This document shows, piece after piece, positions 10,281 to 49,238 of a stretch of 49,238 bases of DNA. This stretch comes from Candidatus Woesearchaeota archaeon. Its GTDB lineage: Archaea; Nanobdellota; Nanobdellia; Woesearchaeales; UBA11576. A model generated the notes under the pieces. It had not been told where the DNA came from. It worked only from the letters and a program-made list of their open reading frames with translations, and ran no database searches. Numbering within the stretch: position 1 is the first letter of the stretch; the number at the start of each line of letters is the position of its first letter. The stretch covers positions 1-49,238 of the forward strand of contig JAFGJH010000052.1 of assembly GCA_016929255.1 (NCBI GenBank). The letters run 5' to 3'. The translations under genes and the position numbers were made by a program.

Positions 10281-10325
10281 TATTTTATTATAACATCCTA
10301 TTCTGTATTTGTTTAGCTATTATTG

Positions 10326-10500
10326 GCGGCACTGCCACCGCTTTCTGCGTGTCCTCTGACTGAAGAAACAGAATGGGCTGCACTTAATCTGAACTGTGCG
10401 GATATTGCGCAAGCACGGTCAGAATCATAAGAGGATAGCAGCCGACATGGGTGTAGCAGCGTGGCGGTGCTGGCTCAAGCGGCTGCGCTGGCCAGATATA
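10326..10500 (+). ncRNA. E-family structured intergenic element, copy A
   Basis: This GC-rich non-coding stretch between aIF5B and the lipoprotein gene shares three blocks with 41480-41673, 47768-47985 and 49105-49238. Block 1 is CCGCTTTctGCGTGTCC. Block 2 is GCGCAAGC (10407-10414), in which TGC/GCA can close a GCAA (GNRA) loop. Block 3 is AGCAGCGTGGC, starting 48 bases after block 2. A GGCTGC (10376-10381)/GCAGCC (10438-10443) stem brackets block 2; copy D keeps it as GGTTGC/GCAACC with the same 56-base interior. The 68 bases so enclosed align without gaps to copy D at about 47 identities. No ORF. Function unknown. Confidence 0.6.
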
Positions 10501-16848: not shown

Positions 16849-18666
16849 ATGGGTAATCAGGACAGGTTCGTGTTTGAGGCCTCGTGGGAAGTCTGCCATA
16901 AGGTCGGTGGTATATATACTGTTGTAAAGTCAAAGGCAGCTCTCCTCAACGCAGCATACCCTAATTATTTTCTTATAGGCCCTTACTTCAAGGATCTTGC
17001 CGATCTAGAGGTTAATGAAGAGACCCTGCCGCACGGTTTCCAGGAGGTCTTTGACGAGCTCAGGAATGAAGGGATAGTCTGTCATTTCGGCAGGTGGCAG
17101 ATAAAAGGCAGTCCAAGGGTGATACTGATAGACTTCTCAGGCTACTGGCCCAGGAAGGACGCGATAAAGAAGATGCTTTGGGATAAGTTCCAGGTCGATT
17201 CGCTGTTCGCTGGCGGCGATTATGACGAGGCGATAGTCTGGTCTTCTGCTGCTGGCAGGTTCATCGAGCGCTTCATCCAGAAGAAGCAGGAGAGAGGTGA
17301 GAACAATTTCAAGTACGTGGCGCATTTCCACGAATGGCTCTCCGGCGGAGGCCTTCTACACCTGAAGAACAGCGGTGTGAAGGTAGGCACAGTATTCACG
17401 ACGCACGCTACTATGCTCGGCAGGACCATTGCGGGATCCGGACGCGACCTCTACGACGAGCTTGAGGGCATCAACCCTGAGGCCGAGGCGAAGAACTCAG
17501 GGATACAGGCTAAGCATACCACAGAGATGGCCTGTGCGCAGAACGCGGATGTGTTCACGACAGTCTCGGAGATAACTGGCATCGAGGCGGAGCACCTTCT
17601 CGGAAGGAAGCCTGATGTGCTGGTGCTGAACGGCCTCGACATCGAGAAGCTGCCGACCTATGAGGAGGCGGCATATAAGCACAGGCTGAACAGGGAGAAG
17701 ATACACAACTTCCTGAGGTATTATTTCCTCCCCTATTACTATTTTGACATAGAGGACACCCTCCTGCTTTTCATCGTCGGAAGGTATGAGTTCAAGAACA
17801 AGGGCATCGACCTGGTCATACAGGCTCTCGCAAGGCTGAATGAGAGGCTCAAGAAAGAGGAGTCGAAGCGTTCTGTGATATGCTTCATCTGGATACCGAG
17901 GGATGTCCACGGCGTCAGGAATGACATCTCGATAAACAAGTCTGCTTACAGCACCATCAGGGGATTTGTGGATGAGCACATACCCCGGATAGAGGAGAAT
18001 ATAGTGACCAACATAATCAAGAGCGGGCTTAAGAAGATTGATGTGAGCGCGATAGGCAATGATATCTTCGATGATGAGTTCAAGCACAACATCAAGAAGC
18101 TCGAGGTCAACTTCGCGAAGCAGGGCAACCCATCGCTCTCGACGCACAACATACCTAACGAGTATGATGACATAATAATAAGGACACTGACAGAGACAGG
18201 ACTTGACAACAAGGAGGATGACCCTGTTAAGGTGATATTCTATCCTATCTACCTTTCAGGCGTGGACGGCCTGACCGATCTGTCTTATTATGATGCGATG
18301 AACGCATGCCATCTGGGGCTTTTCCCGTCGTATTACGAGCCGTGGGGATACACCCCTCTGGAGTGCGCGGCCCTTGCTGTGCCTTCGATGACAAGCGACC
18401 TCGGCGGTTTCGGCAGGTTCCTGCTGCAGAAGACGACAGGCAATTCAGGCATCTATGTCCTGAAGAGGTACAAGAGGGACATGGAGGATGTCATGAAAGA
18501 GTTCACCGATGTCCTCTACAAGTTTGCGAAGTTCAACGCAAACGAGAGGGTGCAGCAGAAGATACTCGCAAAGGAGCTTGCCAATCTCGCCGATTGGAAG
18601 GAGCTGATAGTCAATTATTTCAACGCGCACGACCTTGCTATAAAGAAGGCCTTCGGCGGAAGCTGA
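16849..18666 (+). CDS. Glycogen synthase, GT3 family (copy 1)
   Basis: The 605-residue enzyme should add glucose from a nucleotide sugar to the growing glycogen chain. It starts with FEASWEVCHKVGGIYTVVKS (9-28), the donor-binding motif of GT3 glycogen synthases. It also has HFHEWLSGGG, THATMLGR, the central AQNADVFTTVSEITGIEAEHLLGR region (given only in part) and the C-terminal FPSYYEPWGYTPLECA with the catalytic Glu pair. GT3 is the animal/fungal-type family rather than bacterial GlgA (GT5). GAGGTGA lies at good spacing before the ATG. A paralogue is at 41697. It opens the run leading into glycolysis. Confidence 0.88.
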   Translation: MGNQDRFVFEASWEVCHKVGGIYTVVKSKAALLNAAYPNYFLIGPYFKDLADLEVNEETLPHGFQEVFDELRNEGIVCHFGRWQIKGSPRVILIDFSGYWPRKDAIKKMLWDKFQVDSLFAGGDYDEAIVWSSAAGRFIERFIQKKQERGENNFKYVAHFHEWLSGGGLLHLKNSGVKVGTVFTTHATMLGRTIAGSGRDLYDELEGINPEAEAKNSGIQAKHTTEMACAQNADVFTTVSEITGIEAEHLLGRKPDVLVLNGLDIEKLPTYEEAAYKHRLNREKIHNFLRYYFLPYYYFDIEDTLLLFIVGRYEFKNKGIDLVIQALARLNERLKKEESKRSVICFIWIPRDVHGVRNDISINKSAYSTIRGFVDEHIPRIEENIVTNIIKSGLKKIDVSAIGNDIFDDEFKHNIKKLEVNFAKQGNPSLSTHNIPNEYDDIIIRTLTETGLDNKEDDPVKVIFYPIYLSGVDGLTDLSYYDAMNACHLGLFPSYYEPWGYTPLECAALAVPSMTSDLGGFGRFLLQKTTGNSGIYVLKRYKRDMEDVMKEFTDVLYKFAKFNANERVQQKILAKELANLADWKELIVNYFNAHDLAIKKAFGGS

Positions 18667-25148: not shown

Positions 25149-25192
25149 ATTAATAACTTGCAGTGTGGCAGCTGCCTTTCGAAAAGAACAAT

Positions 25193-41479: not shown

Positions 41480-41673
41480 TTCAGCAGAGCCACCGCGGCG
41501 CCAGTCGGTCAATCGAGCGATAACCTGCCACATCTCCTGTGATGTGCGGAAGGCGCCAGCCTCCTGCTGCAAAATATTCAATTTCCCGCGGGCCGCACAC
41601 CAGCAGCGTGGCGATGGTTCAAGCTTTGCTTGATACCCTACAAACCGCGGGGTTGCGCTGCGATGGCAGATAT
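41480..41673 (+). ncRNA. E-family structured intergenic element, copy B
   Basis: This lies between the ATPase and second glycogen synthase genes. Block 1 is GTCGGTC (41504-41510). Block 2 is AAGGCGCCAGCCTCC (41550-41564), one base different from copy C, in which AGGC/GCCT closes a four-base loop. Block 3 is AGCAGCGTGGC (from 41602), 49 bases after block 2, as against 48 in copy A and 50 in copy C. TCAAGC-TTT-GCTTGA forms a clear hairpin after block 3. The end, TTGCGCTG...GGCAGATAT, resembles that of copy A. No ORF. Confidence 0.5.
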
Positions 41674-41696: not shown

Positions 41697-43556
41697 ATGA
41701 TTTTGTTGGGGGATTTCAGTTTGGTTGATGAAAAAAGAGGTGAAGATAAGCATATCAAGGCAGATTTCCTGTTCGAGGTATCTTGGGAAGTCTGCAACAA
41801 GGTCGGCGGCATCTACACAGTTCTCAAGAGCAAGATACCGCAGACAGTGAAGAAGTATGGTGAGAATTACTGCCTGGTGGGGCCTTACTTCCACTCCAAG
41901 GTGAAAGGCGAGTTTGAGGAGCTCATCATGCCTGATGAGTACAGGGAGGGGACAGAAGCGCTGAAGGCGATGGGCATCGTTCCCCACTATGGCAAGTGGC
42001 TTACAGAAGGGAGCCCGAACACTCTTCTTCTTGATTTCCAGCCGTTCTTCGCGAGGAAGGATGAGATAAAGCGCGGGCTGTGGGACCATTTCAGGATAGA
42101 CTCACTCAACGCCCCTTTCGAATTCGAAGAGCCTGTAGTGTGGGCCTGGGCGGTCGGAGTGGCTATCGAGAGCTTCTTCAGGCGCTACACTTCGCGGTGG
42201 AGGATTGCTGCAGTGTTCCACGAGTGGCTGGCCGGCGCTGGACTGCTTTATCTCAGGTCGCAGAAGAGCCCCATCGGCACGATCTTCGTGACGCACGCGA
42301 CTGTCCTCGGCAGGAGCCTGGCCAATGCAGGCGTCGACATATATCATAAGGAGAATGAGGATAACAGCCTTCTTGATACCATGGATTTCGACAGGGAGGC
42401 ATACACCCGCCAGGTCTCCTCGAAGCACCAGCTCGAGAAGGCATGCGCCCACAATGCTGATGTCTTCGCCACAGTGTCTGAGATAACAGGCATCGAGGCC
42501 GAGCACATATTGCAGAAGAAGCCGGACCTTCTGGTGCCGAACGGCCTGAACCTGGACAACTTCCCGACGATAGAGGAGAGCTCCATAAAGCACAGGGTGT
42601 TCAGGGACAAGATATACCACTTCCTGCTCTATTATTTCTTTCCATATTACCACATAGACATCGACAACACCCTGATATACTTCATAGCGAGCAGGTACGA
42701 GATGCATGATAAGGGCATCGATGTCTTCATAAAGGCCCTGGGAAAGCTGAACAAGGAGCTCAAGAAGGAGGACTCTGAGAAGAGCATCGTAGCGTTCTTC
42801 TGGGTCCCTACAGGCGTCAGAGGCATAAAGCCCGAGATCATCGAGAACAAGACATTCTTCAAGGATGTCGAGGACAGCCTTAAGGACAATGCAGAGCATG
42901 TGATGTGGCGCCTGCTGAGCACGTTCGTGGCGGGCAAGCCTATTGATAAGGATACCATATTTGACAAGGAGTTCCTTGATGACATCAAGAGGAAGGTGGT
43001 GAGGTTCAAGAGAAGCGAGACCAGCCCTCCTGTATGCACGCACGACCTTCAGGATCCTAATGATGCCATCATCCGCGAGTTCATGAAAGAAGGCCTCAAT
43101 AATGCCAAGGATGACAAGGTGAAGGTGATATTCTATCCGATATACCTGGCCGGCGCTGACGGCCTGCTTGACCTGGCCTATTATGAAGCGATCCAGGGTT
43201 CTCATCTCGGCATATTCCCTTCCTTCTATGAACCTTGGGGCTACACGCCTCTGGAGTCTGCAGCGCTGGGTGTCGTATCGATAACATCTGACCTGGCAGG
43301 TTTCGGGAGATACATCAAGCAGCACATGAGCGAGGAATGCCCGGGGATATGTATACTTGAGAGGATGGGCAGGACAGATGACAAGGTCGTGGATATGCTG
43401 AAAGAGAAGCTCCATGCATATTCGATGATGACCAAGAAAGAGCGCGTGAACAACAAGGTCGAGGCCAGGAAGCTGGCCAACAAGGGGGATTGGGATTTGC
43501 TTATCGACAATTATGTGGATGCGCAGAACCTGTGCATCGAGAGGCATTTTGGATAG
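41697..43556 (+). CDS. Glycogen synthase, GT3 family (copy 2)
   Basis: The 619-residue paralogue of the 16849 gene has FEVSWEVCNKVGGIYTVLKS near residue 26, VFHEWLAGAGLL, THATVLGRSLANAG, and FPSFYEPWGYTPLESAALG. Both active-site Glu positions of the C-terminal motif are kept. The start is uncertain: the ATG at 41697 has no ribosome binding site, while the in-frame TTG at 41721 follows GGGGGAT at good spacing and would still precede the domain. Two GT3 enzymes in one window suggests specialised roles, for instance chain initiation and elongation. Confidence 0.87.
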   Translation: MILLGDFSLVDEKRGEDKHIKADFLFEVSWEVCNKVGGIYTVLKSKIPQTVKKYGENYCLVGPYFHSKVKGEFEELIMPDEYREGTEALKAMGIVPHYGKWLTEGSPNTLLLDFQPFFARKDEIKRGLWDHFRIDSLNAPFEFEEPVVWAWAVGVAIESFFRRYTSRWRIAAVFHEWLAGAGLLYLRSQKSPIGTIFVTHATVLGRSLANAGVDIYHKENEDNSLLDTMDFDREAYTRQVSSKHQLEKACAHNADVFATVSEITGIEAEHILQKKPDLLVPNGLNLDNFPTIEESSIKHRVFRDKIYHFLLYYFFPYYHIDIDNTLIYFIASRYEMHDKGIDVFIKALGKLNKELKKEDSEKSIVAFFWVPTGVRGIKPEIIENKTFFKDVEDSLKDNAEHVMWRLLSTFVAGKPIDKDTIFDKEFLDDIKRKVVRFKRSETSPPVCTHDLQDPNDAIIREFMKEGLNNAKDDKVKVIFYPIYLAGADGLLDLAYYEAIQGSHLGIFPSFYEPWGYTPLESAALGVVSITSDLAGFGRYIKQHMSEECPGICILERMGRTDDKVVDMLKEKLHAYSMMTKKERVNNKVEARKLANKGDWDLLIDNYVDAQNLCIERHFG

Positions 43557-44590: not shown

Positions 44591-45934
44591 ATGGCAGTTA
44601 ATGAGGGCATATTCAAGGCGTATGACATAAGAGGGGTGTATCCTGCAGAGCTTGACGAGGATACCGCTTATAGGATAGGCCGCGCTTTCGTGAGTTTCCT
44701 GAAATGCAGGGAGGTCATCGTAGGGCAGGACATGAGAAAGAGCTCATCCTCTCTTTTCAAGGCCCTTGCAGAGGGCATCACTGACCAGGGGGCTGATGTC
44801 ATCGACATAGGCTATGCAAGCACGCCCTTCTTCTATTTCGGGACAGCAAAGCACAAGGCAGGGATGATGGTCACCGCTTCCCATAACCCCGCAAAATACA
44901 ACGGTTTCAAGATGTGCCGTGATGGCACGGTCCCTATCGGCGGGGACAGCGGTATGCAGGAAATAAAAGAGCTGGCTGTGAGAGGTGTATTTGCTGAGCC
45001 TGAAGCCAAAGGGAGTGTGACAAAGAAGGATATTATGGGGGATTTCATCGCGCATAACCTCAATTTCCTTGACAAGGGCCTGAACAGGCATTTGAAGATA
45101 GTGGTGGACACAGGGAACGGGATGGGAGGTTACACTTTCCCTAAAGTCTTCGAAAAAATACCTGATGTAGAGGTCATTCCCCTTTTCTTTGATGTTGACA
45201 TGTCATTCCCGAACCATGAAGCCAACCCTCTGAAGGAAGAGAACATCGCCGACCTTAAGGGGATGGTCATCAAAGAGAATGCTGATTTCGGCGTCGGCAT
45301 AGACGGTGACTGCGACCGCTGCATGTTCGTGGACGAGAACGGTGAGCTGATCACTGCAGACATCATGACTGCGATTCTCGCAAAGGTGCTGCTGAAAGGC
45401 AGTCCGGGGGCCAAGATACTTTATGACCTGCGATCGAGCTGGGCGACAAAGGAAATAATCGGGGAGAGCGGCGGCGTCCCTGTGATGTGCCGTGTGGGGC
45501 ATGCTTTCATCAAGAAACAGATGCGGGAGGAAGACGCATTGTTTGCAGGCGAGCTTTCAGGACATCTCTATTTCAGGGATTCTTTCGTCACAGAGAGCTC
45601 TATAATATCGACGGTACTGGTGATCAACCTGCTGAGGGCGGAAGGCAAGAGGCTTTCAGAGATTGCCGGACCTCTCAAGAGGTATTTCGCCAGCGGCGAG
45701 ATAAACTCCGAGGTGGAGGACAAGGAAGGGAAGATGAAAGAACTCGAGGATATGTTCAGGGAGGAAGCGAAGGTCACTTCACATCTCGACGGCATAAAGC
45801 TCGAGTTCGACGACTGGTGGTTCAATGTCCGACCTTCCAACACAGAGCCGCTCCTCAGGCTCAACCTTGAGGCAAAGACGAAGAAGAGGATGGAAGAGAT
45901 GCGGGACAGGGTCCTAGCGGTGATAAGGTCATGA
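44591..45934 (+). CDS. Phosphoglucomutase/phosphomannomutase
   Basis: The 447-residue alpha-D-phosphohexomutase moves the phosphate between C6 and C1 of glucose or mannose. It has FKAYDIRGVYP at the start, the phosphoserine loop TASHNPAKYNG, the metal-binding DGDCDR, the GELSGH sugar-specificity loop, and the C-terminal RPSNTEPLLRLNLEA. Which sugar it prefers cannot be read. Context suggests glucose-6-phosphate to glucose-1-phosphate for glycogen synthesis. The ATG at 44591 follows AGGTGAT; its stop overlaps the next ATG. Confidence 0.93.
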   Translation: MAVNEGIFKAYDIRGVYPAELDEDTAYRIGRAFVSFLKCREVIVGQDMRKSSSSLFKALAEGITDQGADVIDIGYASTPFFYFGTAKHKAGMMVTASHNPAKYNGFKMCRDGTVPIGGDSGMQEIKELAVRGVFAEPEAKGSVTKKDIMGDFIAHNLNFLDKGLNRHLKIVVDTGNGMGGYTFPKVFEKIPDVEVIPLFFDVDMSFPNHEANPLKEENIADLKGMVIKENADFGVGIDGDCDRCMFVDENGELITADIMTAILAKVLLKGSPGAKILYDLRSSWATKEIIGESGGVPVMCRVGHAFIKKQMREEDALFAGELSGHLYFRDSFVTESSIISTVLVINLLRAEGKRLSEIAGPLKRYFASGEINSEVEDKEGKMKELEDMFREEAKVTSHLDGIKLEFDDWWFNVRPSNTEPLLRLNLEAKTKKRMEEMRDRVLAVIRS

Positions 45935-47757
45935 AGATAACCCACAAGCTTCCGAAGCAGAGCATCAGCAGGGATGTCGGAGGGAATCCCGTCTGCATAC
46001 TCTCCAACAGGGCCGGCGGCTTCCTTTTTCTTTCTGACCCTGTGATATCCAAGTACAACGGCCTCTTCGTGAACTATAACATGCAGATTTACAGGGTGCT
46101 GGAGAGCATCAGGCTCGCTGACAGCGATGTCCGGGAGCTGGAGAATGGGCTGGCGTACATCAAGAGAAAGCACGCCGGTAACTCAGAGAAGATAATATTT
46201 CCGCCTGGCGTAAACGGGTTATATTACTCTCTCGCGAAGAAAGCAAAGATAGTCCTGGACTTTGACTGCATGAGGATGCATGACCTGCGTTCTTTCGGCA
46301 GGCATTATCATGTCGACGCAGGAAAGGACCTCATAACAATGGGATTCACAAAGCGCAGTGACGGCAGGGACGACCCGACCGAGGACATCGGGGAGTTCGG
46401 TCTGTTCATCGTGATCCGGCCCAGGGGTTTCGTGCCTGAGAAGGACTATGATTTCGTCGACCAGTGGCTTGAGAGCCATTACAGCTTCGACCACAGCAGG
46501 AAGGACTCCCCTGCTGAAAGGTATTTCTACAGGCCGTTCGTCCTGGCTGCTAAGGAGCTGCTCATCGCTGTCGGCAGGACAAAGGATGAGGCTCTTGCAG
46601 AGCTCGGCAGGCTGAAGAAGGCAGGGCTGCCGCGAGCAGAGCATAAGAGCATCGACAGGAAGAAGGATGCTGAGGCTGCTGCCGCCTTCATCTGCGCGCA
46701 GGAGTCTCTTGAGTGCATGAAGACAGTGCATGAGGGCGTCACAAGGCTCTACGCAGGCTATCCCTGGTTCTTCCAGCTCTGGTCAAGGGACGAGAACATC
46801 TCCCTCGGCGCGCTCATAAGGACTGGACAGTTCGGGACAGTCAAGGATATACTGTTCAAGTATATATCTAACATCGGCAGGGACGGCAGGCTGCCCAACC
46901 ACATACCTTCACCGCATCTCGGCTCTGCCGACGGTGTCGGCTGGTTCTGGAAGAGGTTCAGTGATTTCATCAATGAACTCAGGGAGAAGGAGCTGCTGGA
47001 CAGGCACATTTCTGCTGCAGAGATGGGGAAGATAAAGGAGTCCCTTGCAGAGTCCATAAAGAGGGTCGAGAAGAGCTTCGGCTCAGAAGGCCTGGTGACA
47101 AACAAGGGCAAGGAGACCTGGATGGATACTGACTGCGGAGGGCAGGACCCGCGCGACGGCGCGAGGATTGAGGTACAGGCATTGCATCTCAACATGCTGC
47201 GCCTGATGCATGAGCTAAGCGGCGGGAAGGGATACAAGACACAGGAGGAGAAGATGAGGAAAGCGGTTCTTGAGAGGTTCTGGAACGGTTCTGTTCTGGC
47301 TGACGGCGCAGGCGATTTCGCTGTAAGGCCTAACATCTTCATCGCGTATTACGCCTATCCTGACCTCCTTTCCCGCCGTGAGTGGCAGACTGCCTTCGAC
47401 AGCTGCCTTGACAGGACCTGGCTCGACTGGGGCGGGCTCGCGTCCATCGACAGAGACCATCCTCTTTTCCGTCCTGACTACTCAGGCATGGACAACCTCA
47501 GCTATCACCGCGGCGACTCGTGGTACTGGCTCAACAACCTGGCTGCGCTCTGCATGTTCAGGAACAACGCAATACATTTCGAAGGGAAGATAAAGAAGGT
47601 CATCGAGGCGAGCTCTGAGGAGATATTGTGGCACGGAGCTGTCAGCCACCATGCAGAGCTCTCTTCTGCATCTCATCTCTCGTCATATGGCTGCCTTGCG
47701 CAGGCATGGTCCGCTTCGATGTTCATAGAGCTGATATCTGAGGTGTACTGCAAATGA
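45931..47757 (+). CDS. Glycogen debranching enzyme (amylo-1,6-glucosidase, GH133-like)
   Basis: The 608-residue protein has an N-terminal beta-rich domain (about 1-230, LSNRAGGFLFLSDPVISKYN) and an (alpha/alpha)6 barrel (about 240-605) with PWFFQLWSRDENISLGALI and ETWMDTDCGGQDPRDGARIE, the substrate-site motifs of the glycogen debranching C-terminal domain. It should remove the branch glucose as free glucose, which the downstream glucokinase can use. There is no signal peptide. Translation is coupled to the phosphohexomutase by an ATGA overlap. It is shorter than bacterial/eukaryotic bifunctional debranchers. Confidence 0.87.
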   Translation: MKITHKLPKQSISRDVGGNPVCILSNRAGGFLFLSDPVISKYNGLFVNYNMQIYRVLESIRLADSDVRELENGLAYIKRKHAGNSEKIIFPPGVNGLYYSLAKKAKIVLDFDCMRMHDLRSFGRHYHVDAGKDLITMGFTKRSDGRDDPTEDIGEFGLFIVIRPRGFVPEKDYDFVDQWLESHYSFDHSRKDSPAERYFYRPFVLAAKELLIAVGRTKDEALAELGRLKKAGLPRAEHKSIDRKKDAEAAAAFICAQESLECMKTVHEGVTRLYAGYPWFFQLWSRDENISLGALIRTGQFGTVKDILFKYISNIGRDGRLPNHIPSPHLGSADGVGWFWKRFSDFINELREKELLDRHISAAEMGKIKESLAESIKRVEKSFGSEGLVTNKGKETWMDTDCGGQDPRDGARIEVQALHLNMLRLMHELSGGKGYKTQEEKMRKAVLERFWNGSVLADGAGDFAVRPNIFIAYYAYPDLLSRREWQTAFDSCLDRTWLDWGGLASIDRDHPLFRPDYSGMDNLSYHRGDSWYWLNNLAALCMFRNNAIHFEGKIKKVIEASSEEILWHGAVSHHAELSSASHLSSYGCLAQAWSASMFIELISEVYCK

Positions 47758-47767
47758 GTATGTGTTT

Positions 47768-47985
47768 AGCGGATATTGGCCGCTGCCGCCGCTTTAGCGT
47801 CGGTCAGGATAAGGCGGTGGAAACCGGCCGCATCGCCGAAAATGCACATTAAGGCGCAAGCCTCCAGCAGTTTATGGTGCAGGGGTTTGCCGGCCAGCCG
47901 TATAGCAGCACGGCAGCTGCCAAACGGAAGCCGAACATTACGCAAATGATTTTAATGGGCGCCTAAGCAGGTGGCGTAAAAAAGG
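47768..47985 (+). ncRNA. E-family structured intergenic element, copy C
   Basis: This lies between the debranching enzyme and glucokinase genes. Block 1 is GCCGCCGCTTTAGCGTCGGTC (quoted as GCCGCCGCTTT and GCGTCGGTC), close to GCCACCGCTTTctGCGTGTCC of copy A. Block 2 is AAGGCGCAAGCCTCC (47851-47865), where AGGC/GCCT closes a GCAA tetraloop. Block 3 is AGCAGCACGGC (from 47904), 50 bases later, part of a GCCGT-ATAGCAGC-ACGGC hairpin. It could be the glk leader or an independent RNA. No ORF is seen. Confidence 0.5.
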
Positions 47986-49104: not shown

Positions 49105-49238
49105 TACTTCTCGCATGGCTGCAGCCACTGCTCTTTGCGTGTCCTAATATAATTGAAGCAGAATGGTTGCACTTCAGCTATAGACCGCAGATACTGCGCA
49201 AGCACAGTCGGATGCACCATCTGATAGCAACCAACTGC
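49105..49238 (+). ncRNA. E-family structured intergenic element, copy D (cut by window end)
   Basis: This is the closest relative of copy A. GCGTGTCCT starts at 49137 and GCGCAAGC at 49196, the same 59-base distance as in copy A. Stem GGTTGC (49165-49170) with GCAACC (49227-49232) replaces GGCTGC/GCAGCC of copy A, a paired C-G to T-A change, with the same 56-base interior. A GCAG-ATA-CTGC hairpin aligns to GCGG-ATA-TTGC of copy A. Block 3 would fall at about 49245, beyond the window. Confidence 0.55.

Follow-up and report, generated by a model that had tools for sequence, protein, structure and literature searches.

The E family of a DPANN archaeal genome: probably a superfamily of MITEs whose core is structured and strand-specific

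Four related elements, A to D, lie in the intergenic DNA of the 49,238-nucleotide stretch analysed here (the window). They very probably belong to a MITE superfamily, the E family, the core of which is structured and strand-specific. Members of this family are short and non-coding, are bounded by terminal inverted repeats and by a duplication of fixed length, and occur in multiple copies with insertion differences between relatives. The sequence-only reading that preceded this analysis was right about the family and about the structure signal but missed the mobile element around them. At about 84 copies per 1.21 Mb and about 142 bp per core, roughly 1% of a small DPANN genome would be structured mobile repeat, and the family would offer an unusually clear case of a MITE interior under strand-specific structural selection.

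The window copies and the genome-wide family

HMMs built from copies outside the window recover all four elements, which are real, homologous and all on the plus strand: copy A at 10328-10470 (E = 1.9e-36), copy B at 41484-41615 (E = 6.8e-19), copy C at 47780-47920 (E = 8.8e-26) and copy D at 49115-49237 (E = 7.7e-26). The same independent HMMs detect no fifth copy in the 49-kb window, and the reversed window scores at most 1.2 bits. Such E-values, obtained with window-free models, refute a chance likeness among G+C-rich intergenic sequence; nothing is left in favour of this explanation, the probability of which is negligible. The homology expressed in the initial description of the copies as three spaced sequence blocks holds, but block 1 of D had to be corrected to CTGCTCTTTGCGTGTCC and the true ends of the elements lie outside the blocks; block 3 is absent from D because the contig ends first. 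A and D form subfamily 1, B and C subfamily 2.

Element A covers about 195 bp (10305-10499, plus strand, as delimited by its terminal repeats), with an intact left terminal repeat, GTATTTGTTTAGCT (10305-10318), and a decayed right one, GCTGGCCAGATAT (10487-10499). Its structured core (10324-10475, plus strand, 144 bits with the R2 covariance model) consists of an outer helix, a helix P1 (GGCTGC/GCAGCC) and the hairpin TGC-GCAA-GCA. Element B (41482-41673, plus strand) is degenerate, with a core at 41482-41618 and a decayed right end at 41662-41673. It scores 97 bits (E = 2.4e-17) with model R1, the training set of which included B, the independent score being the 6.8e-19 given above; in the orthologue of B in the congeneric genome G001, the right repeat (AGCTAAACAAATAT) is preserved and the copy contains a nested hairpin insert of 50-60 bp. 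Element C (47758-47941, plus strand, 184 bp, 119.5 bits with R1) is intact, its terminal repeats reading GTATGTGTTTAGC and GCCGAACATTAC. Comparison of its flanks reveals a perfect 8-bp target-site duplication, GCAAATGA, at 47750-47757 on the left and 47942-47949 on the right (both given on the plus strand), the left copy containing the TGA with which the upstream gene (45931-47757) terminates. The core of C (47778-47921, plus strand) comprises an outer helix, P1 (CCGGC/GCCGG) and the hairpin AGGC-GCAA-GCCT. Finally, element D (49105-49238, plus strand), whose core begins at 49114, is cut by the contig end and scores 84.6 bits with the covariance model, or 104 bits once truncation is allowed for; its complete orthologue, G001:C20:15326-15476, scores 143 bits.

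The genome from which the window comes (G000; 1.21 Mb in 60 contigs, 93% complete) contains 47 places matched by copy A in BLASTN searches. Two covariance models gave 69 and 70 matches genome-wide at E ≤ 1, each subfamily model matching the members of the other weakly; merging these matches yields about 84 copies, many of them at contig ends, so that the genome-wide search proposed by the sequence-only reading did uncover further copies. Among 59 related genomes, the core is restricted to one genus: it is present in at least 39 copies in G001 (a Nanoarchaeota MAG) and in one or two copies in the congener G002, and gives no score in the congener G003 or in any other genus searched. A scan of GTDB genomes with the core pattern returned a single record set, JAHJSS01 (MAG Nanoarchaeota archaeon OS_PC_MetaG.mb.26). 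Viral contigs contained neither a match to the core pattern nor an exact full-length end pair; a short end pattern matched them 51 times, with any inverted partner in one case, which was devoid of a duplication. Phage and plasmid records gave no match.

Terminal repeats and target-site duplications

Intact members of the family are 170-190 bp long, the range for intact elements at large being about 159-190 bp; they are non-coding and are longer only when they contain nested inserts. Their terminal inverted repeats, 13-14 bp in length, start with GTATTTGTTTAGCT and finish with AGCTAAACAAATAC; consistently, TATTTGTTTAGC is over-represented in the sequence to the left of the cores and its complement in that to the right. 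In the 13 copies that retain both ends (with at most 4 mismatches), the 8-mers just outside the ends are identical at 6.7 of 8 positions on average, versus 2.9 of 8 for mismatched pairing. More generally, 21 of 54 distinct elements with paired ends are flanked by an exact 8-bp target-site duplication, whereas no other length between 3 and 14 is exactly duplicated in more than 3 of 54. A+T makes up about 79% of the target sequence that is duplicated. Note that most copies in G000 are devoid of one or both outer repeats and that some lie in tandem, neighbouring units having a terminal palindrome in common, two features that simple transposition does not account for. A lone GGCAGCTGCC palindrome, possibly the remnant of an E-type end, is also found between convergent genes of the window (25160-25177).

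The combination of terminal repeats with 8-bp duplications points to a DDE-type transposase, which would act in trans on the shared ends and insert the elements with 8-bp staggered cuts. Mobilization in trans by a DDE-type transposase is established for elements of such form. Searches for the Y1, IS1595 DDE and tyrosine recombinase families identified no transposase or autonomous element with these ends. More specifically, (i) none of nine genomes, including four of the genus, encodes a Y1 transposase, in a search run with positive controls; (ii) IS1595 DDE transposases are absent from the genus, which rejects IS1595 as the parent element; (iii) G000 contains no tyrosine recombinase, though it has the most copies. 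Neither did about 313 kb of G009, a genome of the sister genus g5, yield a long element bounded by these ends: where such ends form long pairs there, the genes between them are housekeeping or unrelated ones, and the pairings seem fortuitous. The elements would point to a transposase that makes 8-bp target duplications and belongs to none of the families searched (Y1 and IS1595 in the genus, tyrosine recombinases in G000).

Insertion differences and exchange of cores

Comparison of related genomes reveals both empty and shared sites. Two G000 copies (C38:18383 and C28:37124) correspond to empty sites in G001, with flanks 82-93% identical; these two cases document presence and absence, not clean ends, because the outer repeats of both copies are gone. 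The site of element C carries no element in G003, where the orthologous interval spans about 42 bp instead of 270. Conversely, G000 and G001 share B, D and the C12:3059 copy, which must therefore be older insertions.

Other sites are occupied by different cores in sister species. The site orthologous to G000:C44:27604 carries the other subfamily in G001, the three tandem units at G000:C10:79079-79485 correspond in G001 to a single unit of the other subfamily, and the site of B in G003 contains an unrelated nested hairpin with a nearly identical terminal helix; this hairpin core recurs elsewhere in G003 and has relatives in G001 and G000. Within the genus (G001, G003 and G000), GTATTTGTTTAGCT ends flank at least two further cores, several of them with 8-bp duplications. 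In the sister genus, G007 contains 106 occurrences of the end motif and G009 contains 214 (2-3 in the reversed control); there the motif surrounds unrelated cores, some with perfect 8-bp duplications, and in 18 of 26 elements inspected in G009 the two copies of the duplication agree at 7 or 8 of the 8 positions. Cores at one site that differ between sister species and unrelated sister-genus cores between the same ends lead to the same conclusion: cores change fast and are swapped, while the ends stay.

The cores and their surroundings are themselves varied. A second core type, exemplified by G003:C23:30145-30324, is made of nested hairpins around GGGGGATGCCCCC; BLASTN locates this type at 35 places in G003, at 12 in G001 and at 3 in G000, and a number of these adjoin E copies. 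A third type, of about 159 bp (GCGCCGCCAGCCCCGCC...GGCTGGCGGCGC), sits inside the same terminal repeats in G001 (C25:41334-41492, C64:1821-1979, C60:3979-4137 and C15:4295-4459). Smaller nested palindromes are hosted by the cores, such as TGTCAGAAATGCC...TTTCTGACA within the orthologue of B in G001 (G001:C20:23192-23250), and TTCAAGCTTTGCTTGAA-type hairpins adjoin several copies, as well as occurring at 41620-41640 in the window. In G007 and G009, elements of about 140 bp are near-identical to one another and have perfect 8-bp duplications, which probably reflects recent activity.

A covarying fold in the core

The core, about 142 nt long, is predicted to fold into a bulged outer helix, a long-range helix P1, the arms of which are about 65-80 nt apart, and a small hairpin with mostly GNNA or GNA loops. 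RNAalifold, applied to an alignment mixing the subfamilies, gave only seven pairs because P1 is out of register between them; the subfamilies were therefore modelled separately, with 63 copies of subfamily 2 and 52 of subfamily 1. Canonical pairs fill 96.2% of the helix cells in subfamily 2 and 93.9% in subfamily 1, counts that lean somewhat toward structure since the alignments were fitted to the models; rows left out of model building show the same pairing behaviour. Compensatory double changes affect 11 of 18 pairs in subfamily 2 and 9 of 18 in subfamily 1, each value being reached by 1 of 500 shuffles, and the covariation signal is lost when the partner is slid by 1-3 columns. In subfamily 2, ranking all column pairs of the alignment by covariation puts one pair from each of the three helices in the top three places. 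Compensatory changes beyond chance are found in all three helices and in both subfamilies. Single-sequence folds are only modestly more stable than shuffled sequences (z = -1.9 for A and -2.6 for C) and do not reproduce the consensus fold.

The nature of the non-Watson-Crick pairs indicates which strand folds. The helices contain 74 G·T versus 23 A·C cells, whereas the corresponding changes are about equally frequent at unpaired positions (170 C->T and 181 G->A). The imbalance persists when relatives are collapsed to one per cluster (59 G·T versus 22 A·C, p about 5e-5) and is most pronounced in the inner helices (24 versus 3, relatives collapsed), most A·C cells falling in the outer helix. Since a G·T excess over A·C implies that one defined strand folds, these data point to a fold acting on one strand, as RNA or single-stranded DNA, instead of a plain inverted repeat that a protein reads in the duplex. 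The folded strand would matter either once transcribed or while the DNA is transiently single-stranded.

Alternative explanations and known systems

If the copies were resident genes for structured non-coding RNAs, each expressed as a trans- or cis-acting RNA, one would readily understand the strand-specific covarying fold with its two subfamilies, the lack of a protein-coding signal and the retention of B, D and C12:3059 at the same place in two species. Yet such genes would not be expected to lie between terminal inverted repeats with exact 8-bp target duplications, to alternate with empty sites, to number more than 80 divergent copies, to be confined to one genus, to form tandem and nested arrangements or to share their ends with other cores; moreover, no common promoter-like motif precedes the copies, the enriched upstream words being the terminal repeat or neighbouring copies. 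We consider this explanation quite improbable. Of the earlier suggestion of an old structured RNA, the conserved single-strand structure survives and the old RNA family does not, because the core is limited to one genus and lies inside a dispersed transposable element. That no known RNA family is involved is borne out by Rfam, which returned nothing credible at gathering or relaxed thresholds; there are no tRNA genes either. A more serious contender accepts the MITE and treats the pairing as a by-product of palindrome copying, through hairpin-templated repair or gene conversion between arms, the folded strand being functionless. The outer helix is indeed itself a palindrome and holds most of the A·C cells, the intergenic regions concerned are rich in nested palindromes, and repair templated by hairpins could imitate some of the signal; however, P1 spans about 65-80 nt, the small hairpin covaries as well, and arm-to-arm copying does not predict the inner-helix bias toward G·T. 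On balance, we judge this explanation unlikely. As for the MITE with a structured core, it is conceivable, and we propose it tentatively, that the core functions as a structured RNA, or as a device made of single-stranded DNA, spread behind many genes by DNA-transposon ends, its modules being swapped; if so, it would represent a mobile structured RNA of DPANN archaea.

The REP/BIME/REPIN repeats mobilized by RAYT, a Y1 transposase, and the integron attC sites, on which a tyrosine integrase acts as folded single strands, come to mind for other reasons. REP-type repeats are likewise palindromic, extragenic and located at gene ends, and attC sites likewise lie past stop codons, fold as single strands and diverge in sequence. 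Neither the Y1 (RAYT) nor the integron tyrosine-integrase mechanism is known to make 8-bp duplications, however, and the E family further differs from REP/BIME/REPIN by a much longer unit and the absence of Y1 from the genus, and from attC by a genome without integrase and by neighbours that are syntenic core genes, not cassette arrays. With no Y1 in nine genomes and no tyrosine recombinase in G000, both readings are rejected within these assemblies (own genome 93% complete) and have a very small probability. The E family also resembles the enterobacterial ERIC (about 127 bp), which is intergenic, mobile, built on a long imperfect palindrome and sometimes found at gene 3' ends, but is unrelated in sequence; to our knowledge, 8-bp duplications and core exchange are not features of ERIC. 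Prokaryotic MITEs provide the closest parallel: like E elements, they are short, non-coding and multicopy, with terminal inverted repeats, target-site duplications and A+T-rich intergenic targets. A 2024 review (PMC10969869) gives terminal repeats, duplications, A+T-rich intergenic targets and hairpin transcripts as their hallmarks and lists archaeal examples from Sulfolobus, Halobacterium, Haloquadratum and others. The E family stands apart in that no parent insertion sequence was found among the Y1, IS1595 and tyrosine recombinase families searched, in that a second, internal, strand-specific fold covaries, and in that cores are exchanged while ends remain constant. We found no report of a MITE from this archaeal group in the open-access literature, and the superfamily appears new to us.

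Position relative to genes

Copies are nearly always found outside predicted genes, and most lie no more than about 50 nt from a stop codon; either orientation is seen. With tandem copies and orthologues each counted separately, the neighbouring genes are in the same-same orientation in 29 cases, opposite-opposite in 15, convergent in 26 and divergent in 15. This mixture does not favour a role in mRNA, and a 3'-UTR element tied to the gene strand is rejected because both orientations occur. The simplest account would be insertion into A+T-rich DNA just past genes combined with loss of insertions into genes or promoters. The most likely role would be that of a hairpin in read-through 3' RNA, which could make insertion behind genes tolerable or protect transcripts; the fold would also be compatible with processing into a small RNA or with a stage as single-stranded DNA. 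In any case, many genes owe an altered 3' end to these elements, and C even duplicates a stop codon. The window also contains two Glycogen_syn (GT3-type) glycogen synthase genes (16849-18666 and 41697-43556), the second of which lies near genes for an amylo-alpha-1,6-glucosidase and a glucokinase.
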